Assembly (NCBI RefSeq): GCF_035917575.1
Contig: NZ_CP109090.1
Location: forward strand, 7,192,001-7,256,000
DNA: 64,000 nt
DNA from: Streptomyces sp. NBC_01788
GTDB taxonomy: Bacteria; Actinomycetota; Actinomycetes; Streptomycetales; Streptomycetaceae
Direction: 5' to 3'
The notes under the pieces were generated by a model. The model had not been told where the DNA came from. It made no database searches and saw only the letters and a list, made by a program, of their open reading frames with translations. The position numbers were made by a program, and so were the translations under genes. Below, piece by piece: positions 1,829-26,708 of the stretch (position 1 is its first letter; every line of letters begins with the position of its first letter).

Positions 1829-1950
1829 GGGGGTACCTCCAGAGGTGTTTCGGAGATGGCTGATGCCGCCGGCGTCACTGCCGGCCGACCAAGCGGTCAG
1901 GGGGCGCCCACGGACGGGCGCCCGGTGACCTCGGCTGATCGGCGGGAGTG

Positions 1951-4251: not shown

Positions 4252-4356
4252 GTAGAACGATCACCTGTTCTCGGAGGGCGCGTCCCGGAACGGGCGGGCG
4301 TAGCCCTTACGGGGAAATTGGACGACTCGACGACTCGACGACCGCGATGTGCGGTC

Positions 4357-4719: not shown

Positions 4720-4822
4720 GGGAAGACGTCCTTCTCTTCTGCTGGGAGAACGAAGATTGAGGAAGCGGCGGGAGGTGAACAGGAAATGTGATGAAACCAC
4801 CATCCGACCCTGTGGGATCTTC

Positions 4823-4881
4823 GGTACCTGTGCCGTACCCGGAATCCATACACCTTGCGTATGTGTTCCATATCGCGGAAC
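4823..4881. promoter_or_regulatory. Three successive 5-7-5 inverted repeats upstream of the DUF5132 gene
   Basis: Three 17-bp palindromes share one geometry (5-bp arms, 7-bp spacer): GGTAC/GTACC at 4823-4839, CATAC/GTATG at 4847-4863 and GTTCC/GGAAC at 4865-4881. They lie about 100-160 nt upstream of the DUF5132 start, in the ~300-bp gap (4720-5018) that should hold its promoter. They look like an operator array for a dimeric regulator; the function is inference. I see nothing else coding in this gap. Confidence 0.4.
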
Positions 4882-5018
4882 CGACATCCCATCACGCAGA
4901 GCGTATCCGAGGCCGAGCGGGTAGATCCAAATTCCACTGGCGCTCTTCACCCAATCGAGCGGAACCCCTTTTCAGAACGGCCTGTTCAAGCCATGCGGCG
5001 GCCGGAATGAACCGGACG

Positions 5019-8486: not shown

Positions 8487-8540
8487 CCGCGGCGAACGCC
8501 CGGCGTGGCCGCACCGCCACCGAGTCGAGGAGGTTCCCCC

Positions 8541-9527
8541 ATGGTGACCAAGTCCGTACGGCTCGGTGCCCTGGCCCGGCACCACCCGTGGGTGGTGTTC
8601 TGCTGCCGACGTTCGGCCCGGCTGATCGTCTCCCTCTTCCTGGTCGTCACCGGTTCCTTCGCGATGATCCGGCTGATCCCGGGAGACCCCGTCCGGGCCG
8701 CACTGGGTGTGGACGCCGCACCGGACCTCGTGGCGGCGAAGAGGCACGAACTCGGCCTGGACCATGACGTGTTGACGCAGTACCGGCAATACCTGCGCCA
8801 CCTGGTGCACGGGGACCTCGGGGTGTCGCTGGTGACCGGCGAGCCGGTGGCCGACCTGGTCGGGGCCCGTCTTCCCGCGACGCTGCTGCTCGCCGTCCTG
8901 GCGTTCGCCTGCGTACTCGTCGTCGCTCTCCCCGGCGGTCTGATCGCCGCCGTGTTGACCCGCGGCGGGCGGCGGCCCCGGACGGAACTGACGTTCACCA
9001 CCGCTACATCCATTGCGGCCGGCATGCCGGACTTCGTCCTCGCGGCGGGCCTGACCGCGGGGCTGGCAGTCGCCCTGCGGCTCTTTCCGGTCGCCGGCGA
9101 CCTCGGCCCCCAGTCCTATGTGCTGCCCGTGCTCGCGCTGGCGCTCGCTCCGAACGCGGTCCTCCTGCGGATCGTGCGCGTGGAGACGCTCAAGGTCCTC
9201 GACGAGGACTATCTGCGCGCCGCCCGCGCGAAGCGGCTGCCCGCCGTCGCGCTCCATCTGCGCCACGTGGCGCCGAACACGCTGACCGCCTCGCTGACGG
9301 TCGCCGGGAACCTGCTGCCCGCCCTGATCGCCGGTACCGTGCTGGTCGAGAAGGTCTTCGCCTGGCCGGGCATCGGGTCGGCGATGGCGCAGTCCGTGGC
9401 CGCGCAGGACTACGCGGTCGTGGAGGCGACGGTTCTCGTGCTGGGCGCGGCCGTGCTCGCGGTGAACTTCCTGGTCGATCTGGCCCTCGCGCTGCTCGAC
9501 CCCCGATCGGTCATCCGGAAGACGTGA
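8541..9527 (+). CDS. ABC transporter permease, DppB type
   Basis: A 328-residue integral membrane protein. After residue ~25 it has the DppB/OppB hallmarks: a first membrane helix followed by MIRLIPGDPVRAALG, a periplasmic stretch with QYLRHLVHGDLGVSL, then five more helices. The EAA-type loop that contacts the ATPase includes YLRAARAKRLPAVALHLRHVAPN. The ATG at 8541 follows GAGGAGG with a good gap. It sits 54 nt after the binding-protein gene and 4 nt before the fused permease-ATPase, so it is part of the same transcript. Confidence 0.9.
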   Translation: MVTKSVRLGALARHHPWVVFCCRRSARLIVSLFLVVTGSFAMIRLIPGDPVRAALGVDAAPDLVAAKRHELGLDHDVLTQYRQYLRHLVHGDLGVSLVTGEPVADLVGARLPATLLLAVLAFACVLVVALPGGLIAAVLTRGGRRPRTELTFTTATSIAAGMPDFVLAAGLTAGLAVALRLFPVAGDLGPQSYVLPVLALALAPNAVLLRIVRVETLKVLDEDYLRAARAKRLPAVALHLRHVAPNTLTASLTVAGNLLPALIAGTVLVEKVFAWPGIGSAMAQSVAAQDYAVVEATVLVLGAAVLAVNFLVDLALALLDPRSVIRKT

Positions 9528-9531
9528 TCCC

Positions 9532-11475
9532 ATGGTGTCCTCACCTTCCCTGCCCGCGCCGCGCGCCACCGCGGGGCGCCGGTCCCGTCCGGCCCGGTCG
9601 GGCTGGGCTTCACCCATGGGCGTGATCACCCTGGCGATGCTCGGATCGCTTGCCGTTCTGGCCCTGGTGGGACCCGCGCTCTGGGGGCAGGCGGCCGACC
9701 GCCCCAACCCGTCGGCGGTACTTCAGGGGCCCACCGCGGACCACCTTCTCGGCACGGACCATCTCGGACGTGACCTGCTCGCCCGGCTGCTCGTGGCGAC
9801 GGGGCTCTCCCTGCTGCTCGCACTCGCGTCGACGCTGCTCGGGGCGACGGCCGGGATCACACTCGGCGCGCTCACCGCCGTCGTGGGTGCGCGCGCCCGC
9901 CGGATGCTGGGAGCCCTGATCAACCTCCTGCTGGCCTTCCCCGGACTCCTCGTCGCGATGTTCTTCGCGGTCCTCTTCGGCGCGGGTGCGGGCGGTGCGG
10001 TGTTCGCACTCGCGGTCGCCTACGCGCCGGGCTTCGCCCGGATCGCCCAGACCCTCGCCGCCAAAGTCGCCGACACCGACTTCATGGCGGCGGCGCGCGT
10101 GCTGGGACTGCGCCGCCACCGGCTCCTCCTGCGCCACGTCCTGCCCCACATCGCTGAGCCGCTGATGCTCAACACCACAGTCGCGGCGGGCTCGACACTC
10201 GTGGCCCTGTCGGGCCTGAGCTTCCTCGGACTGGGCGTCCAACCGCCCTCCTACGACTGGGGGCTCCTGCTCAGCCAGGGGCTGGACCGCATCTACTCCG
10301 AACCCCTGCCCGCCGTGGCACCCGGCATCGCCATCGTCTACGCCGGTGTCGCCTTCCAACTGCTCGGCGAGATGCTGGCCAAAGCCGCCGCACGACGCAC
10401 AGGCCCACGGCGGACAGCGGAGCCCGCGGCGCGCCCGGCCCCCGTCGACCGCCCGGCATCCGTCGACCATGTGCTGGAGGTGGAGGACCTGCGAGTCGCC
10501 ATTCCCACCGCGGCCGGGGTGGTCCGGCCCGTCCGCGGTGTCACCCTCGACCTGCGGCGCGGCGAGATCGTCGGGCTGGTCGGCGAGTCCGGCTCCGGCA
10601 AGTCGCTCACGGCGCTCGCCGTCGCCGACCTGTTGCCGGACGACGCCGAGTCCACCTGGCGGACCCACCGCTTCCTCGGCGCGGACGTCACGTCGCTGAC
10701 GCGCAAGGAGCGGCGCGGACAGCTCGCGACGGGAATGGCGGTGATCTTCCAGAACCCGGCGTCGGCCTTCAACCCGTCGCTCCGCATCGGAACGCAGATG
10801 ACGGAGGCCGTGCGCGCACACCGCGACACGCCTCGCGACCAGGCCGTCGAGCAGGCCCTGACCCAGCTTCAGCGGGTCGCACTCCCTGCCGGGCGCCGCT
10901 TGCTGCGGTCTCGGCCCTTCCAGCTCTCCGGCGGCCAGCGCCAGCGGGTGGCGATCGCGACCGCTTCGATGATGCGGCCCGACCTCATCATCGCGGATGA
11001 GCCGACAACAGCCCTCGACGTCACCGTGCAGCGGCAGATCGTGGACCTGCTCCGCCGTGTCCGGCACGACAACGGCACCACGATCCTCTTCATCAGCCAC
11101 GACATCGCCCTGGTGGCCCACACCTGCGACCGGGTCCTGGTCATGTACGCGGGAACCATCGTCGAGAGCCTCCCGGCCCACGCACTGGCGACCGGAACAC
11201 GGCACCCCTACACGCGGGCGCTCGTCGAATCCGTCCCGGACATGACCACGGACCGTGGCCGCCCCCTGCGCACGATCGAGGGAAGCCCACCCGATCCGTA
11301 CGGCGACACCCCGGGTTGCCCGTTCTACGATCGCTGCGCACACCGGCAGGACCGGTGCGCCGAGGAGAGTCCCGTGCTGTCCCCTCTCGGCCCCGGCCAC
11401 GAGGTCGCCTGCTGGCACCCGCTGCCCCGGCCACTGTCCTGCGGGCAGCGGGAGACCGAGGAGGCGGAGAAGTGA
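9532..11475 (+). CDS. Fused ABC permease (DppC type) and ATP-binding protein (DppD type)
   Basis: A 647-residue fusion of two subunits usually made from separate genes. Residues ~25-285 are a DppC-like permease (DHLLGTDHLGRDLLARLL after the first helix; EAA-type loop FMAAARVLGLRRHRLLLRHVLP). A Pro/Ala/Arg-rich linker (~288-315) leads to a complete ATPase: Walker A GESGSGKS (~349), signature LSGGQRQR (~465), Walker B LIIADEPT, H-loop FISHD. The C-terminus has the Cys-rich oligopeptide-ATPase tail (GCPFYDRCAHRQDRC), common in family-5 transporters. There is no stop or frame change between the halves. The stop overlaps the next GTG start by 4 nt. Confidence 0.9.
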   Translation: MVSSPSLPAPRATAGRRSRPARSGWASPMGVITLAMLGSLAVLALVGPALWGQAADRPNPSAVLQGPTADHLLGTDHLGRDLLARLLVATGLSLLLALASTLLGATAGITLGALTAVVGARARRMLGALINLLLAFPGLLVAMFFAVLFGAGAGGAVFALAVAYAPGFARIAQTLAAKVADTDFMAAARVLGLRRHRLLLRHVLPHIAEPLMLNTTVAAGSTLVALSGLSFLGLGVQPPSYDWGLLLSQGLDRIYSEPLPAVAPGIAIVYAGVAFQLLGEMLAKAAARRTGPRRTAEPAARPAPVDRPASVDHVLEVEDLRVAIPTAAGVVRPVRGVTLDLRRGEIVGLVGESGSGKSLTALAVADLLPDDAESTWRTHRFLGADVTSLTRKERRGQLATGMAVIFQNPASAFNPSLRIGTQMTEAVRAHRDTPRDQAVEQALTQLQRVALPAGRRLLRSRPFQLSGGQRQRVAIATASMMRPDLIIADEPTTALDVTVQRQIVDLLRRVRHDNGTTILFISHDIALVAHTCDRVLVMYAGTIVESLPAHALATGTRHPYTRALVESVPDMTTDRGRPLRTIEGSPPDPYGDTPGCPFYDRCAHRQDRCAEESPVLSPLGPGHEVACWHPLPRPLSCGQRETEEAEK

Positions 11476-12527
11476 GTGCGGGACTGGCGTTGCACGACGT
11501 CACCGTTCGTCACCAAGGGACTCTCGGTGCCGTCACCGCGGTGGACGGCGTGTCACTGGAGGTTCCCGATGGCACGACAGTCGGTCTGGTCGGCGAGTCC
11601 GGCTCGGGGAAATCGAGTCTGGCCCGTGCCGTAGTCGGGCTGGCCGACTCCTTCTCCGGGCAGATCACCGTCGGCGGGAGGCAGTTCGGCGGGCGCGGCG
11701 CAGCCGCTCGGCGCCGGCTGGGGCAACGGGTGCAACTGGTGTTCCAGGACCCGGACACCGCACTCGATCCACGCATGACGGTCCGCCAGACGCTGTCCGA
11801 AGCGACCGGTGCCTTCGTCCGTCTCGGCCGCCGCGATCGCGAACAGCGCATCGGAGCACTGCTCGAACTGGTCGGTCTCGACGCCCCGTGCGCCGACCGT
11901 CTGCCGGCGCAGCTCTCAGGCGGGCAGCGCCAACGCGTGGCCGTCGCTCGCGCGCTCGCCGTCGATCCGGCCGTCCTGATCGCCGACGAGGTCACCTCCG
12001 CCCTCGACGTGTCCGTCCGCGCGGCGATCCTCACCATGCTCCGCGATCTGCAGCGGCGCATGGGCTTCGCGATGCTGTTCATCAGCCATGACCTCGCCGC
12101 TGTCCGCTCCGTGTCGGACGTCATCGCGGTGATGTACCTCGGCCGAGTCGTCGAGGTCGCCCCGACCGAGGACCTGCTGCGCGGCCCCCGGCACCCCTAC
12201 ACCCGGACGTTGCTGGCCTCCGTGCCGGACCTGCGGGCCGTGGGCCGGCCGGCCGAGGAACCGCTCCTCGCCGGCGAGGTACCCGACCCCGCGGCGCCGC
12301 CTTCCGGGTGCCGCTTCCATCCGCGCTGTCCCGTCGGGCCGAACCGGCGTCCCGAACGCGGCATCTGCGTGACGCTGGATCCCCAGCCGGATGCGGCCGG
12401 CCGACCCCACCGCGCGGCGTGCCACTTCCCGCCGACCGCCGAGGACCGCCCGCCGCCCGCCAGGAACGCGCACCCCGACGGGAGCGGTGACCGGGCACCC
12501 TGGACCGCCGGGGAGCTGCCGTCATGA
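11472..12527 (+). CDS. ABC transporter ATP-binding protein, DppF type
   Basis: A 351-residue ATPase, the second nucleotide-binding subunit of the importer. It has Walker A GESGSGKS (~residue 40), a Q-loop in LVFQDPDTALDP, signature LSGGQRQR (~148), Walker B VLIADEVTSALD, H-loop FISHD, and the Cys-containing oligopeptide-ATPase tail (GCRFHPRCPVG). The start is the GTG at 11472, which overlaps the upstream stop as GTGA, indicating translational coupling. Its own stop overlaps the oxidase start as ATGA. The last ~30 residues are a loose polar extension. Confidence 0.9.
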   Translation: MSAGLALHDVTVRHQGTLGAVTAVDGVSLEVPDGTTVGLVGESGSGKSSLARAVVGLADSFSGQITVGGRQFGGRGAAARRRLGQRVQLVFQDPDTALDPRMTVRQTLSEATGAFVRLGRRDREQRIGALLELVGLDAPCADRLPAQLSGGQRQRVAVARALAVDPAVLIADEVTSALDVSVRAAILTMLRDLQRRMGFAMLFISHDLAAVRSVSDVIAVMYLGRVVEVAPTEDLLRGPRHPYTRTLLASVPDLRAVGRPAEEPLLAGEVPDPAAPPSGCRFHPRCPVGPNRRPERGICVTLDPQPDAAGRPHRAACHFPPTAEDRPPPARNAHPDGSGDRAPWTAGELPS

Positions 12528-13885
12528 CGATCAGGGAGCCGGACAGGGTTCCGTCCGGCGCGGACGCGATCGTCGTCGGGGCCGGCGTGATCGGTGCCGC
12601 GGTGGCTCTGGAACTGGCGCGCGCCGACCGACGGGTCGTGGTCGTCGACAAGTCCGGCGGCGCCGGCCACGGATCCACCAGCGCCTCGAGCGCGATCATC
12701 CGTTTCAACTTCTCGACCTGGGAGGGCGTCGCCGTCGCATGGGAGGCGCACTACTGCTGGGCACGGTGGGCGGACCACCTCGGCACCTCCCGCAGCGCCG
12801 CCCTGGCGGGCTTCCGGCGGACCGGCGCGATCCTGCTCGACGCGCCGGACTCCGGAACGTCCGAGGCCGTCGCGTTGTTCGATCGCGTCGGCGTGCCCTA
12901 CGAACGCTGGGATGCCGCCACGTTGCGCAGCCGGATCCCCGGCATCGACACGGGACGCCACTGGCCCCCCAAGCCCGTCCACGACGACGCCTTCTTCTCC
13001 GGGCCCAAGGGAGAGCTCGGCGCGCTGTTCACACCCGACGCGGGCTTCGTCGACGATCCGCGGCTCGCGGCGCAGAACCTCGCGGACGCGGCGATCGGCA
13101 GGGGAGCGCGCTTCCTCTACCGCCGTACGGTCACCGGTGTCCTGCGCGGCGCGGACCGGGTGAGGGGCATTCGGCTCTCCGACGGCACCGCGATCACGGC
13201 ACCGGTCGTGGTCAACGCCGCCGGCCCCTGGTCGGGTGCGTTGAACCGGCTGGCCGGGGTCGGGGCCGAGTTCACCGTCGGGGTCCGCCCGCTGCGCCAG
13301 GAGGTCCACCAGGTGGCCGCACCGGTGGGCCGGGGCGATGTGATCGCGTCGGGCCGGGGCGGCGCCGAGGACGTGCCCGGACCGGTCGTGGCCGACACCG
13401 ACCTCGGGACGTACGTCCGTCCCGCGCCCGGCGGACACCTGCTGATCGGCAGCACCGTGCCCGCCTGCGACCCCATGGAGTGGCTCGACGATCCCGACAC
13501 GTGCGACCCCCGTCCGACTCCCTCGCGGTTCGAGACCCAGGTGACGCGGGTGGCACGACGGTTTCCGCTCCTCGGCGTCCCGAACCGGCCGACCGGAATC
13601 GCCGGCGTCTACGACGTGACGGACGACTGGTCCCCGATCTACGACCGCACCGACCTGAACGGTTTCTATGTCGCCATCGGCACGAGCGGCAACCAGTTCA
13701 AGAACGCCCCCCTGGTTGGACGGTTCCTCGCCACCCTGGTGGACCGCGTCGAGGCGGGCCACGACCATGACCGCGATCCGCTGCGGTACGTAGGTGAGCA
13801 CACCGGAAACGTCATCGATCTGGCAGCGTTCTCCCGTAAGCGTCATGTGGCCGAGGGTGTCGCCTCCCGAACCGTCATGGGCTGA
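12524..13885 (+). CDS. FAD-dependent oxidoreductase (DAO family)
   Basis: The 453-residue protein opens with a dinucleotide-binding fold (AIVVGAGVIGAAVALELA, residues ~18-35, then VVVVDK). It continues in the style of D-amino-acid/sarcosine/glycine oxidases: GSTSASSAIIRFNFS near the flavin, VVNAAGPWSGAL, and a C-terminal GFYVAIGTSGNQFKNAP. These enzymes oxidise secondary amines, D-amino acids or similar compounds, giving an imine and, with oxygen, hydrogen peroxide. Translational coupling (ATGA) to the importer ATPase implies it oxidises the imported compound or its breakdown product. The substrate cannot be read from sequence. Confidence 0.85.
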   Translation: MTIREPDRVPSGADAIVVGAGVIGAAVALELARADRRVVVVDKSGGAGHGSTSASSAIIRFNFSTWEGVAVAWEAHYCWARWADHLGTSRSAALAGFRRTGAILLDAPDSGTSEAVALFDRVGVPYERWDAATLRSRIPGIDTGRHWPPKPVHDDAFFSGPKGELGALFTPDAGFVDDPRLAAQNLADAAIGRGARFLYRRTVTGVLRGADRVRGIRLSDGTAITAPVVVNAAGPWSGALNRLAGVGAEFTVGVRPLRQEVHQVAAPVGRGDVIASGRGGAEDVPGPVVADTDLGTYVRPAPGGHLLIGSTVPACDPMEWLDDPDTCDPRPTPSRFETQVTRVARRFPLLGVPNRPTGIAGVYDVTDDWSPIYDRTDLNGFYVAIGTSGNQFKNAPLVGRFLATLVDRVEAGHDHDRDPLRYVGEHTGNVIDLAAFSRKRHVAEGVASRTVMG

Positions 13886-15912: not shown

Positions 15913-16680
15913 GTGCGGTGCAGTTGCCCTTACACCGCCTACCGCCGACCGCTGTTCGAACTCGGCGCGCTGCTGGAGGCCAAGGCCGTGCACGGCGCCC
16001 GTAGCGCCTACCACCATCTGCTCTGCCTCGCGCTGAGCAACGGCATCGGCAGGACCCGGGTCGGGCAGGTGCTGGAGCAGGACGGCTTGAGCAGTGTCGC
16101 GGGCAAGCGGGCCGGCGGCTTCTCCCCAGGCATGAGCCAGCGCCTGGGCATTGCCGCCGCGCTGCTCGGCGACCCGCCAGTGCTCATGCTGGACGAGCCG
16201 GTCAACGGCCTCGACCCCGAAGGTGTGCTGTGGATCCGCACCCTGCTCAAGGCCCTGGCCGCCGAAGGCCGCACGGTGCTCCTCTCCAGTCACCTGATGA
16301 GCGAGATGGCGCTGACCGCCGACCGCCTGGTCATCATCGGCCGCGGCCGTCTGATCGCCCAGATGTCCGTCGAGGACTTCCTCGCCAGTGGCGACGGGCG
16401 CTTCGTCCGGGTCCGCACACCGCAGTGCGCCGCACTGGACGGGCTGGTGCGCGACCGGGGCGCGACCGTGGACGAAGCGGGCCCGGACACGCTGCGGATC
16501 ACCGGGATCACCAGCGAGACCGTGGGCGAGATCGCCCGCGCCGCCGACATCGCCCTACAGGAACTCGCCGTCCAGCAGGCCTCCTTGGAGGAGCGCTACA
16601 TGGAACTCACCGGCGAAGCCGTCGACTACCGCACCGCCGCGAACCCGAAGCTCGTCACCGCGGCCCCCAACGCCAGCTGA
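15913..16680 (+). pseudogene. 5'-truncated ABC transporter ATP-binding gene
   Basis: The frame encodes the C-terminal two-thirds of a drug-export-type ATPase: signature FSPGMSQRLG, Walker B VLMLDEPVNGLD, H-loop LLSSHLMSEM, then the C-terminal domain typical of this class. The first ~80 residues, including Walker A and most of the Q-loop region, are missing; homology starts near PLFELGALLEAKAVH and the sequence before it is unrelated. Without Walker A it cannot bind ATP, so I call it a pseudogene. The downstream permease is intact and begins 11 nt after its stop, as in a normal two-gene operon, so the deletion took the promoter end. Confidence 0.8.
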
Positions 16681-16691
16681 GGACGATCCCC

Positions 16692-17522
16692 ATGACCACC
16701 CCCGCCTTCATCTCACCCCTGCCCCGCCCCGCCTCCCGGGGCGCGCTGGCGGGCTTCAACGACCAACTCCGCTCCGAGCTGTGCAAGCTCCGCTCGGTCC
16801 GCTCCACGCTGTGGACCCTGCTCGGCGCCGTCACCTCCAACGTCGCAATCGGCGCGCTGGTGAGCGTCTTCCTCGTCAGCCGCCTCAGCGCCGCGCAGCA
16901 GCAGGGTGCAGACCCGGTCCGGCTCAGCCTGATCGGCCTGCACCTGTCGCAGATCGCACTCGGCACGCTGGGCGTCCTCACCGTCACCAGCGAGTACGGC
17001 ACCGGTCTGATCCGCGCCACCCTCGCCGCCACGCCCCGGCGCCGCACGGTCCTGGCCGCCAAGGCGGTCGTCCTCGCGGGCGTCGGCCTGGCCGTCGGGG
17101 TCTTGTCCTGCGTGGCCGCGTACCTGGTCTTCCACGCTGCCCTGCCTGCCGACACCAGCAGCACCCTGAGCCGGTCGCTGACCAGCCCAGGGATTCTGCG
17201 CGCCGCCGTCGGCGGCGGCGTCTACCTCACCCTCCTCGGGCTGCTCGGTCTGGGCCTGGGCGCGGCCCTGCGCTCCAGCGCCGGCGCCATCGCAACCCTG
17301 CTCGGCCTGCTGTTCGTGCCCGTCATCCTGGTGGGCACGCTGCCGGACGCCTGGCAGACCACCCTCGGCCCCTACCTGCCGATGAACGCCGCAGATGCCC
17401 TCTATCGGCTGCACCCCGAACCCCACGGCCTGAGCGCCGCGGCGGGGCTCGGCGTCTTCTCCCTTTACACCGCCCTCGCCCTCGCAGCCGGATTTACCGT
17501 GATGCACCATCGCGACTCCTGA
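16692..17522 (+). CDS. ABC-2 type permease
   Basis: A 276-residue membrane protein with about six hydrophobic segments (e.g. LWTLLGAVTSNVAIGALVSVFLV, TVLAAKAVVLAGVGLAVGVL). The cytoplasmic start FNDQLRSELCKLRSVRSTLW and the conserved EYGTGLIRATLAATPRR loop are typical of ABC-2 permeases paired with drug-export ATPases. The ATG at 16692 follows a GAGGA motif overlapping the stop of the truncated ATPase gene. The permease itself looks complete, but its cognate ATPase is broken, so the transporter is probably non-functional unless another ATPase serves it. Confidence 0.82.
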   Translation: MTTPAFISPLPRPASRGALAGFNDQLRSELCKLRSVRSTLWTLLGAVTSNVAIGALVSVFLVSRLSAAQQQGADPVRLSLIGLHLSQIALGTLGVLTVTSEYGTGLIRATLAATPRRRTVLAAKAVVLAGVGLAVGVLSCVAAYLVFHAALPADTSSTLSRSLTSPGILRAAVGGGVYLTLLGLLGLGLGAALRSSAGAIATLLGLLFVPVILVGTLPDAWQTTLGPYLPMNAADALYRLHPEPHGLSAAAGLGVFSLYTALALAAGFTVMHHRDS

Positions 17523-18009
17523 CCGACGCTGGAGGACTGGAGCAGCCATGACGTACCCACTGACCTGCAGGCACTTAGCCTCAGGGACGGGCATCAGGTG
17601 GGCCTGGCGGCGGTAGAGAGGCCGGGACCTTCGTCGGTCGAGCCGCCGGAATCCGAGAACCCCTTGGGCGTCGGCGCGTAGTGCCATGCAGGGAGCTGGT
17701 CAACGACGTACATGTGGCGGAGCCGGGGCCGGCCGTGGTGCGGCGGGCCGACCTCGAGGCCCTCGACATGCGCTGGTAGAAGAACGCCCCAGTACGGCGT
17801 GACATCCCCTAGCCGGGTATCCGCGCAACCAACCCTGCGCGCTGATGATCGGCGGGTACCGCACACGCGGTACCTTCGCGGCTCCCGCAGCGCCCGCGGT
17901 AGCCGGATGCGGCATCAGCGGCAGCGCGAATTGCCTACGCCCGCCGGACGACCAGCTGTGGGTCTGGCAGACATGATCGGACGACGTCCAGTCGTAGGAG
18001 GAGCCCCCC
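17523..18009. other. 487-bp gap without a recognisable gene
   Basis: No domain was recognised on either strand. A minus-strand frame at 17594-17866 (with GVLLPAHVEGLEVGPPHHG and YVVDQLPAWHYAPTP) has protein-like composition but no good start or family, and may be a fragment. The last ~30 bp hold the AGGAGGAG ribosome binding site of the next gene. Confidence 0.35.
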
Positions 18010-18384
18010 ATGTCAGTCCGATTTGTGCTTGCTGCGCCGACGCCCGCGCATGACTCGGTCCAGTCGGCCGCCGTTTACAGCCTGACCACCGGGCGACTCG
18101 TGGGCGGCACGGCCGCACTGGTGGCGCTGGCTGGCGTGGTCATCGGGCTGGCTCTGGCCCGCTCCGCCGGTCGTATCGGCACCGGGAACAGGCGAAACAG
18201 GGCCATCGTGGCCATGGTGGCGGGGGTGTTCGGCGTGGTCGTCGGCGCGCTGAATCTGGTTGTCGCTGACGGTGGTCCTGGAACCGGCAACGGAGTCGTC
18301 GGTGGCGCCTTGGCCCTGGTGCTGGGGTTGATCGCCACGGTCCTCGCCTGGCTGGCTCTACCCCGGTCCCGCCGCACCGGTTGA
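18010..18384 (+). CDS. DUF6223 family small membrane protein
   Basis: A 124-residue protein with three hydrophobic segments (LVGGTAALVALAGVVIGLAL, AIVAMVAGVFGVVVGALNLVVA, VGGALALVLGLIATVLAWLAL) separated by a basic loop and a Gly-rich loop. The start MSVRFVLAAPTPAHDS, the SAAVYSLTTGRL segment and the helix pattern agree with DUF6223, a family seen mostly in Streptomyces with unknown function. AGGAGGAG precedes the ATG. No clear operon partner lies nearby. Confidence 0.65.
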   Translation: MSVRFVLAAPTPAHDSVQSAAVYSLTTGRLVGGTAALVALAGVVIGLALARSAGRIGTGNRRNRAIVAMVAGVFGVVVGALNLVVADGGPGTGNGVVGGALALVLGLIATVLAWLALPRSRRTG

Positions 18385-18466
18385 ACGGTGACCGGCTGAC
18401 CGGCTGGCAACAGTGAATGCGAGCATCGGGTCTGGCTGTCAGGCATCGGCTACCCCGACTGCCGCC

Positions 18467-19173
18467 CTACTGGCGGGGCTGCGGCCGCCCGGAGAAAGCT
18501 CCTTCTGCCCCCCTCGCGCCACCCGAACGGGACCATATGGCGGCACCGAACCGGTAGGCGGTTTCCAAGAACCGGCAGCCGGCTGAATCGGGTTCGGGCC
18601 GCCCCCGGCTGCTGTACAGGCCGGCACTGAGGCGTCGGCGGGTGTCCCACTGCCGCATACGGTGCCGGTCCAGCAAGCGGTGGGTGGCCCAGGTCCCGCC
18701 CAGCGCGACCGAGGACGTAGCGACCGCGGCCGCGGTGCCCGCCCCGCCCGCATCGAGCGCCACCTGGCTCGGGGGCAGGGGATTGGACGTGGGGCGGCCG
18801 TGCGCGTCGGTCCACACCGTTGTCCGGCTGCCGGCGGCGACGCCGACGCCGACGTCGGTCTGGCTGGTATGGGGCGGGCCGTTGGTCCCCCTCCACTGCA
18901 CCGTGGCCTGCATGGGAAGACGCCCGGAGGAGACGGCGGCAGGGTCCGCAGTCTCCTTTACAACGACCGCCTGCACCGGATGCTGTCCGGCCTGCTGCTC
19001 ATCGAGATGGTCAGCGGTCGTGACCCCCCCGTGACCACGCCGATCAGGAGGCTGCCAGCTGTAGCGCACAGCCCTGCAGCGAGGAACAGCCATTGCTCAA
19101 CGACGTCGATGCGCAGCCTGAGCGGATTGGGCTGCCACCGCCACAGCATGGTCGGGGTTGCCATCACCATCAC
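18467..19173 (-). pseudogene. Rv1733c-family membrane protein gene, frameshifted
   Basis: The N-terminal part (start 19173) reads MLWRWQPNPLRLRIDVVEQW, then a membrane helix (LFLAAGLCATAGSLLIGVVTGG), the standard opening of Rv1733c-like proteins. The continuation (DHLDEQQAGQHPVQAVVVKE, then TVWTDAHGRPTSNPLPPSQV and a second helix before HRLLDRHRMRQWD) is in a different frame. The switch falls at a run of seven C (19024-19030); one extra base would restore a continuous protein. The tail after QWDTRR also departs from the family. It may be a true pseudogene or a homopolymer sequencing error. The function of the family is unknown. Confidence 0.7.
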
Positions 19174-19425
19174 CCCATGAGCGAGAGCCCGCTCCTTTCC
19201 CCTCTATTTCCCGTCCCCCACGCTCCACCGCAGGTTGCTCAGTGGGCCCGACGGCAACCTCGTACCCGCCCAGCCGACTGTCCTGGTGCTGTGGATCGGC
19301 ACCGCCGAGCGCGTGTCGGCCATGCGCTCGACGTCCACCACACGGCTCGGGCGTGGCTCGGCGCAGCCGCGTACCTCGCTGGTTGGCTAGTAGGAAGTGA
19401 GGTCTTCGGCCGCAGAGAGGCGGAC

Positions 19426-19848
19426 ATGACTGACGTAAATGAGGTAAATCGGCGGGTCATTGCCCAGTTCCGGGCGCAGGGCGGCACTGTGGGAGGCTTC
19501 TTCGAGGGCAAGCATCTGCTGCTCCTGCATACGGTCGGCCGCCGTACCGGCCAGGAACGGGTGAACCCCCTGGTGTACGCGGCCGACGGTAACTGTTTCC
19601 TCGTCTGCGGCACCGCGCGCGGCGCGGAACAAGATCCAGCATGGGTGGGCAACGTCGCCGCCATGCCCAAGGCGACCATCGAGGTGGGGGAGCAGATCCT
19701 CAAGGCGACCCCTACCTTGGTCACGCATGCGTCGCCGGATTGGGAACGTCTCTACGGGCTCTGGTCGGCGTATTGGCCTGACAGCGCGCAGTACGAGACC
19801 AGGACATCGCGCAAGTTCCCCATCGTGAGACTGGAGCCCGACGCATGA
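19426..19848 (+). CDS. Nitroreductase/deazaflavin (F420)-dependent oxidoreductase, DDN family
   Basis: A 140-residue protein of the split-barrel type that uses deazaflavin F420, related to the mycobacterial nitroreductase Ddn. It shows the family's signature order: GKHLLLLHTVGRRTGQERVNPL, a short strand with GNCFLVCGTARG, then DPAWVGNVAAMPKATIEVG. ATG at 19426 follows AGAGAGG. F420 enzymes are common in actinomycetes and reduce diverse quinones or nitro compounds; the substrate here is unknown. It lies directly upstream of the transposon-split gene, 18 nt from its first open codon, but no functional link is evident. Confidence 0.83.
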   Translation: MTDVNEVNRRVIAQFRAQGGTVGGFFEGKHLLLLHTVGRRTGQERVNPLVYAADGNCFLVCGTARGAEQDPAWVGNVAAMPKATIEVGEQILKATPTLVTHASPDWERLYGLWSAYWPDSAQYETRTSRKFPIVRLEPDA

Positions 19849-19866
19849 GACGACGTCCTGCTTTGA

Positions 19867-20493
19867 CCCTACTCCCGCGCCAAACGGCGGCTCGACGTCC
19901 ACGACATCACGTACCCGGCACTGTGCGAGCCGCCCGTATCGCTGGTGGGCACGTACGGGCAAGAGGTCCGCGAGATCGTGGGGAAGGCCGTGCGCGGATG
20001 GGACGCCGGCCCCGAAGTCACCGCCTGGCTCGGCCTGGCCGCCGAACACCGCAGTCACCTCTACGAGAGTCACCACGTCCACCAGGTCACACCGCGCGTG
20101 CTCGGCCTGCTCGACCGGCTCGGTGCCACCGCGCTCGACGTGATTCTGCTTGACACCTACGCGCGATGGGCGACCCCTCGGAGGGTGGGCGAACAGTCGA
20201 GCGAACACGCCCGGCGTCGTGCCGCCGCCGACCTTGTGCTCGGCGCGTGGGCTGCCAAGCAAGGGCTGGTGCGCATGGGCGCGGGGGAGGCGCAGCAGCC
20301 CGCCAGGTCCGTCTTCGAAGGAGTGGCCCGGCAGATCCTCGGCGTGCTCAGTCTCTGTGGCGAGCACGATATCGCCCAGAGGCTGGTCGCCTCCGTGTGG
20401 CCCGACCTCGACCGGCCGTCCGCGGAGACGGGAGCCGATCCCGTCACTCTGGCGCATACGGCTTTCCACAAGGAAGGACTGACCTACGAGGCC
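19867..20493 (+). pseudogene. 5' part of a split gene: RNase III-like domain and start of a dsRNA-binding domain
   Basis: Open from 19867; no good start codon is visible (GTG 19945 is possible), so the 5' end is probably lost. The reading resembles an RNase III domain: LAAEHRSHLYES (compare the usual ALTHRSYLNE), LLDRLGATALDVILLDTYARW (compare LGDAVLDL), then ARSVFEGVARQILGVLSL. Key acidic residues are replaced (LGATAL; RQ instead of EA), so it may be inactive by design or by decay. A dsRNA-binding domain begins at DPVTLAHTAFHKEGLTYEA and is cut by the transposon. Joining 20493 to 25758 (one copy of the GGCC repeat) continues the same frame into YDYDEEGPDHRKVF. In the present sequence the frame ends at a TAG inside the transposon end (20503-20505). 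Confidence 0.72.
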
Positions 20494-20496
20494 CCG

Positions 20497-20524
20497 GAGT
20501 CCTAGCTCAGACACCAGCCGCAAA
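20497..20524 (+). repeat. Left terminal inverted repeat of the Tn3-family element
   Basis: 28 bp beginning GAGTCCTAGCTCAGACACC and ending GCCGCAAA, the exact reverse complement of 25723-25750. It supplies the TAG that terminates the interrupted host frame. Confidence 0.9.
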
Positions 20525-20613
20525 GTAGGTCGCGGGTAGCCGGACGAGCCCCGTTTCCCCGTCCTGTGCGTCGTCGTCGATCTGATCGAGTGATCGAGGC
20601 CAAAGGGGCGGGT

Positions 20614-23605
20614 GTGCGGCAAGAGTGGTCGCCAGAGGAGCTGTTGGCGAACTGGACGCTGGTAGACGGCGACTGGGACCTGGTGGCGAACAAGAGCGGG
20701 ACGACCCGGCTCGGCTTCAGCCTCTTGCTGAAGTTTTTCGAGCTGGAAGGCCGGTTCCCCGATGTGCTGGAGGAGGTGCCGCCGGCCGCGGTGGAGTACG
20801 TCGCCGATCTGGTGAAGGTCCCGGCCACGGACTTCGCGAAGTACACGCTGGTTGGCCGGACTGCCGAGTACCACCGCAAGCAGATCCGGGAGGCCCTGGG
20901 GTTCCGGCCGTCGACGGTCGCGGACGAGAAGGCGCTGGCCGAGTGGCTGGCCGTGGAGGTCTGTCCGGTCGAGCTGGTGGAGGACCGGCAGCGCGAGGCC
21001 CTGCTGGTCGAGTGCCGGGCCCGGAAGATCGAGCCGCCGGGCCGGACCCGGGTCGAGAAGGTCCTTGTTGCGGCACGGGGCAAGTGGGAGAAGACGTTTT
21101 GCGCCCGCACGGTCGGCCGCCTGGGCGAGGCGGGCACGGCCCGGCTGCTGTCCTTGGTGGCCGAGGACAACGAGGCGGGTACCGCCCTGCTGGCCGCGCT
21201 CAAGCGCGACCCGGGCGCGGTCGGCCTGGACTCCCTGCTCACGGAGATCACCAAGCTCAACGACGTGCGCAAGCTCGGGCTGCCCGACGGGCTGTTCACG
21301 GACTGCTCGGAGAAGCTGGTGGCCGCCTGGCGGGCACGGGCGATCAAGATGTACCCCTCGGACTTCCGTGACACGGCGGAGGACGTACGGATCACCCTGC
21401 TCGCGGCGCTGTGCTCGTCCCGGCAGGCGGAGATCACCGACGCCCTGGTCGCCCTGCTGGTCGCCCTGGTTCACAAGATCAACGCACGCGCCGAGCGGCG
21501 GGTGGAGAAGCAGCTCACCGCCGAGTTGAAGAAGGTCCGCGGCAAGGAGGGGATCCTCTTCAAGCTGGCGACGGCCGCCGTCGACAAGCCCGACGAGGTC
21601 GTACGCCGGGCCCTGTTCCCGGTGGTCGGGGAGAAGACGCTGCGCGAGCTGGTGGCCGAGGCGAAGGCGAACGAGAAGGTCTTCAAGGCCAAGGTCCGCA
21701 CCACGCTCCGGTCGTCGTACAGCTCGTACTACCGGCAGATGCTGCCGCCGCTGCTGAACACGCTGGGTTTCAGGGGCAACAACACCGCGTACCGGCCGGT
21801 GATGGACGCGATGAAGCTGCTGAAGAAATACGCCGACGTCGACGGCAAAACCCGCTTCTACGACGCCGGCGACGACGTGCCCATGGACGGCGTGGTGCGC
21901 AAGGACTGGCGCGAGGCGGTCGTCGACGACAAGGGAAAAGTCGAGCGCATCCCCTACGAGCTGTGCGTCCTGGTCGCGCTGCGGGACGCCGTACGGCGCC
22001 GCGAGATCTACGTCGAGGGCGCCGCGCGCTGGCGCAACCCGGAGGACGACCTGCCCGGCGACTTTGAGGCCACCCGCGCCGTGCACTACGCCGCGATCCG
22101 CCAGCCGCTCAATCCGAGGGCGTTCATCGCGGACCTGAAGAAACGCATGACCGCGGGTCTGGACCAGCTGTCCGGCGCGCTCGCGGACGGCAGCGCGGGC
22201 GGGGTTGAAGGTCACCACCCGCAAGGGCGAGCCGTGGATCACCGTGCCCAAGCTGGAGCCGCTGGCCGAGCCCACCGGCCTGGCGGCCCTCAAGGAGGAG
22301 GTCGCGCGCCGCTGGGGCGTCCTGGACCTCCTGGACGTGCTGAAGAACGCCGACTTCCTCACCGGTTTCACCGAGGAGTTCTCCTCGGTGGCCGCCTACG
22401 AGCGCATCGAGCGTGACGTCCTCCAGCGCCGCCTGCTGCTGGCACTCTTCGCGCTGGGCACGAACATGGGCATCCGCGCGATCGTGGCGACCGGCGAGCA
22501 CGGCGAGAGTGAGGCAGCGCTGCGGCACGTGCGCCGGCACTTCATCACCGTCGACAACCTCCGGGCCGCGGTCACCAGACTGGTGAACGCCACCTTCGCC
22601 GCCCGAGACACCGCATGGTGGGGCCGCGGCACCGCGTGCGCGTCAGACTCGAAGAAGTTCGGGTCTTGGTCCTCGAACTTCATGACCGAGTACCACGCCC
22701 GTTACGGCGGCGACGGCGTGATGATCTACTGGCACGTCGAGCGGAAGAACGTCTGCATTTACTCCCAGCTCAAGAGCTGTTCGTCGTCCGAGGTCGCGGC
22801 GATGATCGAGGGCCTGCTGCGGCACTGCACGGACGCCGAGATCGAGTCGAACTACGTCGACACCCACGGCGCGAGCGTGGTCGGGTTCGCGTTCACCGAA
22901 CTGCTCAACTTCCGCCTCCTGCCGCGGCTGAAGAACATCGGCAGCATCCGCCTGTACCGCCCGGACGACACCCTGCCCGGCTGGCCGACGCTCGGCGCCT
23001 CGCTGACGCGGCCGATCCGCTGGGAGCTGATCGAGCAGCAGTACGACCAGATGGTCAAGTACGCCACCGCGCTCCGGCTCGGCACCGCCGAGGCGGAGCA
23101 GGTCCTGCGGCGCTTCACTCGCGGCGGCCCCAAGCACCCCACCTACCAAGCCCTCGAGGAACTCGGCCGCGCAGTTCGTACGGTCTTCGCCTGCGACTAC
23201 CTCGCAAGCCCTGGCCTGTGGCGGGAGATCCACGGCGGGCTTCAGGTCGTGGAGAACTGGAACAGCGCGAACACCGTCCTCCACTACGGTAAGGACGGCG
23301 CCCTCACCGGGCCGGACAAGGAGCACGCCGAGACGTCGATGCTCGTCCTGCACCTGCTCCAGTCCGCGCTCGTGCACGTCAATACCCTGCTGGTGCAGCA
23401 GGTCCTGGCCGAACCGGCCTGGGCGAAGAAGCTGAGCGACGAGGACCGGCGCGGCCTGACCGCGCTGTTCTGGTCCAACGTCAACCCGTACGGCACCTTC
23501 CGCCTGGACATGAACAAGCGCCTCGACCTGGGGCTGGCCGCCGCCGTGCCCGGCCCCCGCACCCCGGCGGATGCCGCCGACCGATCGAGCACGGAGACAC
23601 GATGA
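20614..23605 (+). pseudogene. tnpA: Tn3-family transposase, interrupted by a frameshift
   Basis: About 1000 residues in two frames. The first (GTG 20614; VRQEWSPEELLANWTLVDGD) covers the N-terminal DUF4158-like DNA-binding region and linker up to [13 protein letters not shown]. The second resumes at [15 protein letters not shown] and holds the catalytic region with the three expected acidic residues: [19 protein letters not shown] and VVENWNSAN. The break lies at 22201-22206 (GGGGTT): removing one base joins the frames exactly. It ends at 23605. The element is probably not autonomous now, unless the site supports ribosomal frameshifting or is a sequencing error. An alternative start is GTG 20590. 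Confidence 0.85.
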
Positions 23606-23749
23606 AGGACTTCGCCGACCTCACCGCCCCCCGGATGAGCTGAGTGCCGGGCTGATTACTACGGGACGCCCCGCTGGTTCCCGGGGGGCGCCGCGCTGAT
23701 CCCGGGGGCGCCCGGTGTCGTCTCAGCGTGAGGCAGAGGCGCCTGCGGT

Positions 23750-24124
23750 TCACGTCCGTCGGCGGGTCCGGGCCGCCACGACGACTGCCGCTCCCGTCGT
23801 CCCGGCAGCCGTCCAGAACAGCAACTGGGCGGCGGGCCCGTTGACCGACCTCAGCTCACCGTCGCTGTGGAGGCAGAACGAGTCGGGCGGGAAGTACTGC
23901 GAGACAGCCGCCCCCGTCCCGTGGCACGGTGACTCTTCAGGGAACAGAAAGGGCTGCGCACGCTGCGAAAGTATCCACCCCATGATGACGGTCAGCCAGC
24001 CGGCTGACAGGAACAGCGCACGTGTCCAGGCGGGAACGCCTGCTCGGCGCCCCAGCAGCCAGACTAGGAGCGTCGGCATGACGAAGACGACGAACGGCGC
24101 ACCCAGCACGATCAGGCTCTTCAT
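23750..24124 (-). CDS. Small membrane protein, transposon passenger (unknown function)
   Basis: A 124-residue protein with three hydrophobic helices (VLGAPFVVFVMPTLLVWLLG, FLSAGWLTVIMGWIL, LLFWTAAGTTGAAVVVAA). Between the second and third helices lies an external-looking loop with two Cys (PCHGTG, FCLHSDGE). I recognise no family. The ATG at 24124 overlaps the stop of the upstream small gene as ATGA, suggesting co-translation. It lies inside the transposon on the strand opposite to transposase and resolvase. Confidence 0.6.
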   Translation of the reverse strand: MKSLIVLGAPFVVFVMPTLLVWLLGRRAGVPAWTRALFLSAGWLTVIMGWILSQRAQPFLFPEESPCHGTGAAVSQYFPPDSFCLHSDGELRSVNGPAAQLLFWTAAGTTGAAVVVAARTRRRT

Positions 24125-24351
24125 GGTGCCGGGATCTTACAGACCGGCGCCCCGCCCGACGCCGCGCGCAGATCGAGGCCTGGATCGAGCGGGCCGGTCT
24201 CAGCGTGAGGCTCGGCCAAAGTCCGCCGCGGCGCGTCCTGAAGGAGGCCGGGGCCATCGCTCTGCAGCCGCACCGCGACGCGGAGTTCGGCCGACTCGAC
24301 CGCGGGCGCCAGGTGAACCGTCCTGTCCTCCTGGACGGGTGGGTGTCCCAT
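24121..24351 (-). CDS. Hypothetical 76-aa protein, transposon passenger
   Basis: An open frame MGHPPVQEDRTVHLAP ending GGAPVCKIPAP, with balanced composition, coupled by a 4-nt ATGA overlap to the membrane protein gene that follows it. No family recognised and no strong ribosome binding site. The overlap with a convincing gene and its place 39 nt after another passenger gene are the main support. Confidence 0.4.
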   Translation of the reverse strand: MGHPPVQEDRTVHLAPAVESAELRVAVRLQSDGPGLLQDAPRRTLAEPHAETGPLDPGLDLRAASGGAPVCKIPAP

Positions 24352-24390
24352 GGCTGTGACGGTGTTCCAGCCACCGACGGGGGCGATCTT

Positions 24391-24614
24391 CTAGCGCCTG
24401 TCGGTGTCCGGCGCGGTGTTTGCGTAGTCGAGCGTGGCGGCCTTCACGTCCGCCTCGGCGTTCTCCTCGTGTGTCGGGACTCCGGGCAGAGCAGGCCGAC
24501 CAGGATGCCCTTGTCGAACTTGGTTTTCCAGCGGGCGGCGTCATCGGCTCCCTTCCAGCAGGCGCGGGTGCAGCGGGAGCAGTGCCCCAGGGGCTGGATC
24601 TTGCTACGTGCCAT
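24391..24614 (-). pseudogene. Small Cys-rich protein gene, transposon passenger, apparently frameshifted
   Basis: It begins MARSKIQPLGHCSRCTRACW after AAAGGATGG, a good ribosome binding site. Cysteines in a CxxCxxxC pattern plus a later LLCPE suggest a small zinc ribbon. The frame stops at 24444 after Arg/Thr-rich residues that look out of frame. In the neighbouring frame the text continues sensibly (HEENAEADVKAATLDYAN) to a TAG at 24391, so a one-base loss near 24475 is likely. Intact length would be about 74 residues. Function unknown; position suggests a transposon accessory gene. Confidence 0.5.
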
Positions 24615-24717
24615 GCCGACCATCCTTTCGGCCAGGTGCAGGGCCCCGGATCTCTTCCGAGGAACTGCGGGGTGTTCTTCGGGGCAGGTTGTTGACGTGC
24701 GCACCGCGCTGCCGACC

Positions 24718-24831
24718 GTTTCACAGGTGGTCGCTCGTGAAACACCCGGCCGCACGGTCGTCCACCTGCGGCGATCATGTTTCATGAGTTGTTGCAAATG
24801 ACTGGACGTCTGAAACACCCTCATGAAACAG
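24718..24831. promoter_or_regulatory. Putative res (resolution) site with GTTTCA/TGAAAC repeats
   Basis: Paired half-sites recur just before the resolvase gene: GTTTCA...TGAAAC over 26 bp (24718-24743), GTTTCA...TGAAAC over 38 bp (24779-24816), and a further TGAAAC copy at 24826-24831. Unequal-length paired half-sites next to the resolvase start are the usual layout of a Tn3-type res site, which serves both cointegrate resolution and resolvase autoregulation. Assignment of subsites is inference. Confidence 0.6.
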
Positions 24832-25710
24832 TCCGGGCTTGTGAGCGACGACTTCAAGCGCGTGGAATCGCACGACTGCCCGATGTCCACCTGCGCCGCC
24901 CCCGCGGGGTCCCCGTGCCGGACCGGCAAGGGCAAGGTGGCGATCCAGTACCACACCGCCCGCTTCCGCCTCTTGCCCCAACTCGCCAAGTTGTTCAGCG
25001 TGCCGACGCCCGCCGTACGCAAGCCGGGCTCGGCGTGGACCGAGCTGCCCCGGCCCGTGTGCGCCAGCGCCGAACCGGTCGGACACGTCCGCCTCGGCTA
25101 CGCCCGCGCCTCGACCGCCCGGCAGTCCTTCGACGCACAACTCGACTCGCTCGGCGAGGCCGGGGTCACCCGGGTCTTCTCGGAGAAGATCTCCACCCGC
25201 GCCCGCACGCGCCCCGAGCTGGAGGCCGCCGTGAAGCTCGCCGGGGAGATCCGCTCCTCCGGCGTCGCCGTCACCCTCGTCGTGCACGAGCACAAGCGGC
25301 TCGGCCGCGGCATCGAACTCGCCATGCTCGCCGAGGAGCTGAAGGCGAGCGACGTCGGCCTGGAGTTCCTCACCGGCGAGCTGAAGGGCTCACACGACCC
25401 CTCCGGCGTCGTGTTCACCGTGCTCGCGGCCATGTCCGGTATGGAGCGCGAGTACATCCGCGACCGCACCCTCGAAGGACACGAGTCCGCCCGCAAGCGC
25501 GGTAAGACCATCGGCGGCACCGGGGTCACCGACGACGGCATGCTGTCCATGGCCCTCCACCTACGCGACCAGGAGATGAGCCTGCGCGACATCGCCAAGC
25601 GCCTCGTCATCACCACCGGCGCGAAGAGGGGCCAGCACCCCTCGCCCGCCACCGTCATGCGGATGCTGCGGGAGCACGACGAACAGGCCGCCAGGGCGGC
25701 GGACGCGTGA
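24823..25710 (+). CDS. tnpR: Serine recombinase (transposon resolvase) with N-terminal Cys-containing extension
   Basis: A 295-residue protein. Residues ~1-80 are a Cys-containing extension (DCPMSTCAAPAGSPCRTGKG) that looks like a small zinc-binding head. The catalytic serine-recombinase domain follows: GYARASTARQSFDAQLDSL carries the nucleophilic Ser, and HEHKRLGRGIEL and MSGMEREYIRDRTLEGHE the conserved Arg/Glu segments. A helix-turn-helix lies near the C-terminus (MSLRDIAKRLVITTG). It resolves transposition cointegrates at res. The ATG at 24823 lies within the res-like repeats; GTG 24841 is the alternative. The gene appears intact. Confidence 0.87.
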   Translation: MKQSGLVSDDFKRVESHDCPMSTCAAPAGSPCRTGKGKVAIQYHTARFRLLPQLAKLFSVPTPAVRKPGSAWTELPRPVCASAEPVGHVRLGYARASTARQSFDAQLDSLGEAGVTRVFSEKISTRARTRPELEAAVKLAGEIRSSGVAVTLVVHEHKRLGRGIELAMLAEELKASDVGLEFLTGELKGSHDPSGVVFTVLAAMSGMEREYIRDRTLEGHESARKRGKTIGGTGVTDDGMLSMALHLRDQEMSLRDIAKRLVITTGAKRGQHPSPATVMRMLREHDEQAARAADA

Positions 25711-25722
25711 TCATCCGGCTAG

Positions 25723-25750
25723 TTTGCGGCTGGTGTCTGAGCTAGGACTC
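25723..25750 (-). repeat. Right terminal inverted repeat of the Tn3-family element
   Basis: 28 bp, TTTGCGGC...GGACTC, perfect reverse complement of 20497-20524. Confidence 0.9.
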
Positions 25751-25753
25751 TAG

Positions 25754-26708
25754 GGCCTACGACTACGACGAGGAGGGCCCGGACCACCGCAAGGTCTTCC
25801 GCGCCGCCGTCCGCACCGGAACGGGCCGCACGGCGGAAGGCACCGGACAGTCCAAGAAGGCGGCGCGGGCGGCTGCGGCGCGAGCGCTGCTCGACGCATA
25901 CCCGAGGGTGGCTGCGGCGGCGGGCGCCGAGCGGAAGGCGACACCCGCGAACCTGCCTACCGCGTCGCCGCTGCCCTACGCGCAGCCGGGCAACCGGCAG
26001 CGGGACGCCGTGAGCGACCTGGCGGCGATGTTCGAGCTTGGGCATCGCGCGGATGGGCTCCTCGCCCAAGCCCTCACCCATGCCTCCTGGGTCCACGAGA
26101 ACCAGGCGGCGGCGACCGCCGCCCGCCAGCGCGACAACCACCTCCTCGCCCACCACGGCTCGCACGTGGTGAACCACCTCGCCGCCCACGTCCGCGTCCC
26201 CGACGTCGCGAGAGTGGTTCGGTGAAACGGGGCTGAGGCCGTACGGCGAGCGCTGAGCAGCGGGCCGCAGGCCGCCTCCGTTCGCGACGTCGTGCAGGAC
26301 TGGTGGCGCGATCAGGCCCCGGCCACCGGCGTCACGGTCCGCGACGACATGCGTCAGGAGATCTTCCGCCCGCTCCCCATCCACCTCGGCGCGCTGGACG
26401 AGACCCTGAAGTGGGGCGGCGAAGCCGCCGAGGCGGCCGATACCCGCATCGACGTCGAGCTGACGGTTCAGGACGGCACGCTGCACGTCTGGCTCGGCCT
26501 CGACAGGGTGGACGTCCGGGCGGCGTGCGACGATTTCGCACGCCTGTTGTCGCACACCCTTCCGTACACCGACTGCCTGGTCGGTGACGACCATGTACTG
26601 CTGCGCCTGCACGGCGATCTCGAGACAGATCCCCTTCATCCCTTGGCCGCCGCAGGCATGGATGCCTACGCCTCCGGGCCGAAGGACCGGCGACGACTCA
26701 TTGAGTAA
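25754..26708 (+). pseudogene. 3' part of the split gene: dsRNA-binding domain, second RNase III-like domain, C-terminal region
   Basis: The frame resumes with YDYDEEGPDHRKVFRAAV and GTGQSKKAARAAAARALL, a clear dsRNA-binding domain. A second RNase III-like segment follows (LLAQALTHASWVHEN, then LLAHHGSHVVNHLAAHV, where the usual LGDAV acidic residue is missing). The frame is then stopped by TGA at 26223-26225, in a place where TGG (Trp) would fit. Past the TGA the same frame stays open to 26708 (VQDWWRDQ, ETLKWGGEAAEAADTRIDVEL, HVWLGLDRVDVRAACDDFA), so it is very likely one former protein. GTG 26292 could restart the tail as an independent 138-aa product. Confidence 0.7.

Follow-up and report, generated by a model that had tools for sequence, protein, structure and literature searches.

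Sensing of double-stranded RNA (dsRNA) is central to animal antiviral immunity and to RNA interference, and in receptors of the PKR and OAS types the recognition of dsRNA triggers a kinase or an RNase output. Dicer and Drosha, in turn, combine a pair of RNase III domains in a single chain, at least one of them active in Dicer. To our knowledge, no receptor devoted to dsRNA and coupled to a kinase relay is known from bacteria. The DNA considered here, referred to as the window, is a stretch of 64,000 nucleotides from Streptomyces sp. NBC_01788 (contig NZ_CP109090.1, positions 7,192,001 to 7,256,000). It holds, at positions 19867–26708, a broken gene of a little-studied family which looks like a Dicer core with both cutting sites lost, often has antiviral genes as neighbours, and includes relatives in which dsRNA binding may be converted into a signal. 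The explanation we favour, with a probability of about 55%, is that the window carries a decayed copy of a Dicer-like pseudoenzyme gene, and that the family recognises dsRNA without cleaving it, with a kinase readout in a sister clade and a receptor or adaptor function in its own (the window clade). The sequence relationship, the predicted folds, the loss of catalytic residues, the gene order, and the association of the window clade with defence islands are directly supported.

The intact members of the family, of ca. 974 amino acids (aa), comprise two RNase III folds, one dsRNA-binding domain (dsRBD) between them and one after them, a helical region, and a tail predicted to adopt the ATPase-like fold of histidine kinases (GHKL CA). 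An earlier note, made from the sequence of the window, had proposed two RNase III folds in one chain, recalling Dicer; the AlphaFold2 (AF2) model of the orthologue from locus L003 indeed has such a fold on either side of the dsRBD. The profile of the orthologues matches Mycobacterium tuberculosis RNase III (2a11) over RNase III-like domain 1 and the dsRBD (E 1.8e-18) and Thermotoga maritima RNase III (1o0w) over the second RNase III-like domain (E 1.7e-09). The dsRBD, with its GPxH and KKxA motifs, is recognised by the model and, above the cut-off, by PF00035, and its residues G377, P378, H380, and K404 are invariant. As to the tail of the window clade, three orthologues searched up to an E of 1 gave no HATPase_c match, and no N, G1, or G2 ATP boxes were seen by eye. 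The family differs from Dicer and Drosha in being bacterial, in the loss of both active sites, in the placement of the dsRBDs, in the CA-like tail, and in the lack of a Pfam match to helicase or PAZ in three orthologues, in which residues 1–187 were not searched alone by fold, so that absence from the fold-search lists excludes nothing for this part. Each half of the protein resembles bacterial RNase III (Rnc) with its dsRBD, but unlike Rnc the two halves stand in tandem in one chain, the catalytic set is lost, and the distribution is patchy.

The catalytic residues were followed at five positions, E37, E40, D44, D107, and E110 (numbering of Aquifex aeolicus RNase III), which were located through the 2a11 profile alignment and the motifs; the members aligned were 46, namely three loci and 43 database proteins. 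The place of the LGDAV motif is occupied by LGATAL in domain 1 and by HGSHVV in domain 2, and the acidic residues are absent from both, as the earlier note had read. In domain 1 the D44 place is taken by A, R, or G in 42 of the 46 members, that of D107 by G in 29, and that of E110 by R in 37; at E40, 43 members have D or E. Domain 2 has A at E40 in 45 members, S or A at D44 in all 46, D at D107 in 37, and Q at E110 in all 46. The full set of E40, D44, D107, and E110 is found in none of the 46 members in either domain, and a canonical or Dicer-type nuclease was therefore rejected. According to the title of its entry, 1yz9 is a crystal structure of an E110Q RNase III with dsRNA; domain 2 of the window family has Q at the same place as this mutant.

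The folds are kept in spite of the loss of the catalytic set, as the ratios of nonsynonymous to synonymous substitutions (dN/dS) point to constraint. For the whole gene they are 0.26, 0.26, 0.36, 0.33, and 0.31 in five pairs, ranging from 0.05 to 0.77 per domain, with 0.10–0.33 in the N-terminal region, 0.16–0.39 in the CA-like tail, and low values in dsRBD2 of the two close pairs (0.05 and 0.16). By this measure, purifying selection still acts on the family although its catalytic set is gone. Seven genes were checked and are free of stops. The genes of L004 and L036 are only near-intact, with the N-terminal part in another frame.

The window copy itself is, judging from its sequence, a pseudogene. 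No continuous open reading frame (ORF) spans positions 19867–26708; instead, the frames 19867–20505 and 25746–26225 (stop to stop) are parts of one gene split by a transposon (Table 1). The remnant consists of three DNA blocks, 95–97% identical to L002–L004 and 84–92% to L005 (blastn); such identity is more than a chance resemblance, and it makes the decay look recent. The 5' end is gone, as homology begins at orthologue residue 165 and the first ca. 164 codons are absent. A deletion relative to L003 (about 11062 to 11876 of that locus), which leaves the frame unchanged, has taken the second half of RNase III domain 2, the whole dsRBD2, and most of the helical region; a separate stop lies downstream of its joint, and the tail frame ends ca. 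15 residues short of the orthologue end. Pfam dsrm (PF00035) matches the window at 25746–26222 and NCBIfam RNaseIII does so with E 1.1e-08, while the N-terminal piece alone gave no Pfam family match and, when used to search its own genome, found one match only. Of the domain order read by the earlier note, the RNase III-like and dsRBD pieces were recovered by Pfam, NCBIfam, and the profiles, but the continuous chain was not, and the succession of a second RNase III segment and a tail reflects the deletion joint rather than the order in the family. That note lacked the pseudogene status, the deleted second dsRBD, and the histidine-kinase ATPase-like fold of the tail.

A sister clade of the family carries a kinase. 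Among the best 8000 candidates scored, a search with P0080 returned at least 33 proteins, 31 of them annotated with HATPase_c (PF02518); Pfam places PF02518 in P0080, P0082, and P0115. These proteins possess both the phospho-acceptor histidine and the N and G boxes of histidine kinases: the H-box H is present in 32/32, the N-box N in 31/31, and the G1 D in 31/31 aligned sequences (all but P0039). Q at the E110 place of domain 2 is kept in 32/32. Seven kinase-clade loci were sampled, two on plasmids (L008 and L011, with the fused genes at 9587–13833 and 7758–12100, respectively) and five in genomes (L023, with the gene at 7831–12131, and L038–L041). In all seven the kinase gene adjoins a gene for a receiver protein (tblastn with three receiver proteins), which it overlaps by four bases in six (L038 not counted), while no receiver gene was found by tblastn at 1e-5 at the loci of the window clade or of Rhodococcus. 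Residues D14, D15, D58, and K110 and the RNxxxHGR motif are invariant in three aligned receiver proteins, and the D15-type and D58-type positions together with RNxxxHGR are kept in all seven. Response_reg was identified by Pfam in 3/3 proteins tested and a DNA-binding domain in the output part in 0/3. The pair is thus similar to sensor histidine kinases and their response regulators, as the H, N, and G boxes are present and a receiver protein is encoded alongside, but differs from them in that its sensor is a core of the dsRNA-binding type and its output carries RNxxxH. The kinase-fused relative together with the RNxxxHGR receiver protein is a candidate dsRNA-sensing two-component system.

Of 169 Streptomyces genomes, 10 carry the family (267-aa core query, E <= 1e-12), five with the window clade, including the broken copy, and five with the kinase clade. 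Nine plasmid records match, two of them over at least 80% of the query, and a third clade resides on Rhodococcus plasmids (L009, L010, and L012). L003 and L002, which come from different genera, have a common block of ca. 4.6 kb at 96% identity and no other DNA match.

Defence genes lie at distances of up to ca. 7 kb in 8 of 11 loci (nine of the window clade and two of Rhodococcus), which correspond to 7 of 10 independent ones as L005 and L035 have common neighbours; the count leaves out L012 (a near-duplicate of L009), the fragments L013 and L014, L027 (judged to be the same place as L003), and the window. The neighbours comprise a prokaryotic Argonaute (pAgo-I) with its restriction endonuclease (REase) partner at L003, GajA and GajB at L004, pAgo-II with a helical REase at L005, the same pair at L035 with the pAgo in two ORFs, and Cas7e, Cas5e, and Cas1e of a CRISPR I-E system at L037. 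According to the record annotation, there is a type ISP enzyme at L006, a methylase, a helicase, and DUF262 at L009, and BREX genes at L010; the L009 methylase and helicase fall under type III models in the PADLOC tally and brxC runs past the end of L010. PADLOC, applied to the 83 ORFs that flank the gene at the 11 loci and measure 200 aa or more, matches 68 models at E <= 1e-40, a tally of families rather than loci, of which 25 were read and in which the TmtA, PprPIWI, DrmC, IIG, and PDC matches were assigned to no locus. None of 81 control ORFs matched, these being every ORF of 200 aa or more in six of 16 random Streptomyces regions (81 of 190 ORFs), nor did any of 46 ORFs flanking the kinase-clade genes at seven loci, which assigns the island association to the window clade and its Rhodococcus kin and not to the kinase clade. 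The family lies near several PADLOC-DB defence systems, but two orthologues tested against the 5027 models of that database matched none up to an E of 0.1. A phage origin was rejected: none of 50,697 phage records matched at 1e-5, and no relative was confirmed in viral contigs in two scans.

The conserved dsRBD motifs, together with a Dicer-like RNase III pair devoid of the catalytic set, argue for binding without cutting. According to the favoured explanation, neither of the two RNase III folds, joined in one chain as in Dicer and Drosha, would be expected to cut, the two dsRBDs should hold dsRNA, and the module would recognise dsRNA, probably viral, without destroying it. In the sister clade, this core is joined to an intact histidine kinase, and the adjoining gene encodes a receiver protein whose output part is a candidate RNase of the HEPN type; bound dsRNA would there set off a phosphorelay and RNA cleavage, leading to dormancy or death of the infected cell. 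As only a degenerate CA-like tail is left of the kinase in the window clade, the protein of this clade would more likely be a dsRNA-binding receptor or adaptor working with the defence systems of its island. Mobility and the company of the island genes make it likely that the window clade acts in defence, as a receptor, an adaptor, or a sequestering protein; the possible defence role of the kinase clade, of which no flanking ORF matched, is suggested by its architecture. Among the scaffold, defence protein, and diverged nuclease left open by the earlier note, the loss of the catalytic residues across the 46 aligned members speaks for a scaffold or receptor and against the nuclease, and the neighbourhoods of the window clade speak for its place in defence. 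More tentatively, the family may represent bacterial innate receptors for dsRNA, built on a Dicer-like core with its RNase III sites switched off, one branch signalling through a kinase to HEPN-mediated shutdown and the window branch being a mobile receptor or adaptor in defence islands. Such receptors would differ from PKR and OAS in the kinase and output families and in following bacterial two-component logic. The family is a concrete, testable candidate for a bacterial dsRNA receptor, and its tandem of RNase III folds would exemplify a nuclease that may have become a receptor.

The suspicion that the family was undescribed holds so far: among the best 8000 candidates scored, the database source names (Ribonuclease 3, hypothetical, putative dsRNA-binding protein, dsRNA binding motif protein) are of a generic kind, and the matches listed from open PMC text, outside which the subscription literature largely lies, contain no apparent description of it or of a bacterial dsRNA receptor with a kinase relay. 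In PMC12839542, on BREX diversity, HEPN is used 14 times and dsRBD, RNase III, and dsRNA not at all; PMC7159879 has zero uses of the terms looked for.

Several observations weigh against the favoured explanation. Domain 1 of the kinase clade retains some acids, 9 of 32 proteins having D at D44, and dsRBD2 has the highest dN/dS in the three more distant pairs (0.51–0.77), i.e., it changes fast. The HEPN call is weak (HEPN_RiboL-PSP, E 0.0068, below the cut-off) and was obtained for one of three proteins tested, with none in the other two. No defence neighbour could be assigned at L002, L007, and L036 (3 of 11 loci), the 46 kinase-clade flanking ORFs gave no defence match at 1e-40, only one of 10 ORFs scanned (of 14) around the window copy gave any match, and that a partial one, and no fixed partner gene was seen in the nine window-clade loci read.

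Among the alternatives, the one we hold least unlikely is that the protein regulates or restrains neighbouring defence systems, e.g., by binding pAgo or CRISPR guide or structured RNAs, and is not a receptor of viral RNA. It is consistent with the vicinity of pAgo at L003, L005, and L035 and of CRISPR I-E at L037, and with no catalytic domain being recognised in the window clade, but the partners vary between loci (BREX, restriction, and Gabija as well), which points to no specific one, and the kinase clade has an output of its own and no defence match in its flanks. Defence by mere sequestration of dsRNA, without signalling, appears somewhat less probable; the three folds of enzyme type in the window clade all look inactive and no constant partner was seen with it, but both the N-terminal region and the CA-like tail are conserved, which points to contacts other than those with RNA. 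Proteins with dead RNase III domains are known among host factors, such as mitoribosomal mL44 and the plant RNase III-like proteins, and the family could likewise serve RNA metabolism or ribosome assembly as a mere passenger of variable regions. This seems improbable, as a ribosome factor should be nearly universal and not confined to 10 of 169 genomes, and as the L003/L002 block, the plasmid copies, and the defence-gene flanks indicate mobility. A diverged nuclease still active through other residues, to which the frequent acids at D107 of domain 2 and E40 of domain 1 lend some support, is the most doubtful, given the invariant Q at E110 and S or A at D44 in domain 2, domain 1 without an acid at D44 or E110, and no member with the full set.

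Table 1. Features of the broken gene and of the inserted transposon in the window
Feature	Position	Strand	Evidence
5' remnant, orthologue residues 165 to ~371	19867..20489	+	blastn to L002-L005, 92-97% identity, start 19865-19867
Pseudo-RNase III domain 1, orthologue residues 188-341, LGATA at LGDAV place	19936..20397	+	AF2 model of L003 orthologue mapped base by base; profile match to 2a11
dsRBD1, first part, cut by transposon, orthologue residues 356 onwards	20440..20489	+	profile, model, base mapping
Target-site repeat, left copy, 5 bp	20485..20489	+	read directly; identical five bases at 25758-25762
Tn3-family transposon inside dsRBD1	20490..25757	+	inverted repeats 20489-20528 / 25719-25758, 93%
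Transposase N-terminal frame, DUF4158	20566..22416	+	PF13700 1.1e-24
Transposase DDE frame	22205..23605	+	PF01526 9.9e-118
Transposon resolvase/recombinase	24823..25710	+	PF00239 1.3e-22
dsRBD1, remainder, with GPDH and SKKAA motifs	25763..25898	+	PF00035 E 9.6e-08; base mapping
Pseudo-RNase III domain 2, first part, to deletion joint	25992..26210	+	219/462 orthologue domain bases map; weak Ribonucleas_3_3 match, E 0.029
Deletion joint, located to within about 12 bases; in frame, ~813 bp lost relative to L003	26199..26210	+	blastn and base mapping
In-frame stop, open in orthologues	26223..26225	+	
Tail remnant; 26331-26672 = histidine-kinase CA-like fold (orthologue residues 834-947)	26226..26708	+	

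The element inserted in dsRBD1 has a Tn3 transposase, a resolvase, terminal inverted repeats, and 5-bp target repeats, as expected of the Tn3 family, and a plasmid-borne Streptomyces element matches it end to end (query bases 1 to 5268) with 79% covered at 91.3% identity. Its transposase (20566–23605) is split over two frames, a DUF4158 part and a DDE part, so that the element is probably non-autonomous. P0077, a database cluster of three member sequences, shows the same N-terminal remnant running into transposase and differs from the window by a few residues, so the same insertion may occur in another strain. No RNA genes or tRNA genes were found in the window. The one partial match near the broken gene concerns the ORF at 15913–16677, which resembles mad3 (MADS model) with E 4e-19 over 81 residues, possibly through a shared regulator domain.

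A search with A2 as query, in which the best 8000 candidates were scored, brought up the same close relatives. Among the relatives, P0078 has an N-terminal extension with a CoiA_N match below the cut-off (E 0.0019). An exception to the lack of common neighbours is a gene pair coding for proteins of 839 aa and 510–518 aa, common to L002 (7058–11441) and L006 (4400–8761) in differing settings; one gene of the pair is annotated as gamma-glutamyltransferase, and PADLOC gave nothing at 1e-8 for the 839-aa protein of L002. L003 has, at 16768–20606 and downstream of its pAgo pair, a UvrD-like helicase gene with a PADLOC match and a gene for a 563-aa protein with none at 1e-8. A 507-aa protein, the L005 copy of which has no PADLOC match at 1e-8, is encoded beside the family gene and next to pAgo systems at L005 (12478–14001) and L035 (11500–13023) and has, by eye, a nuclease-type core.

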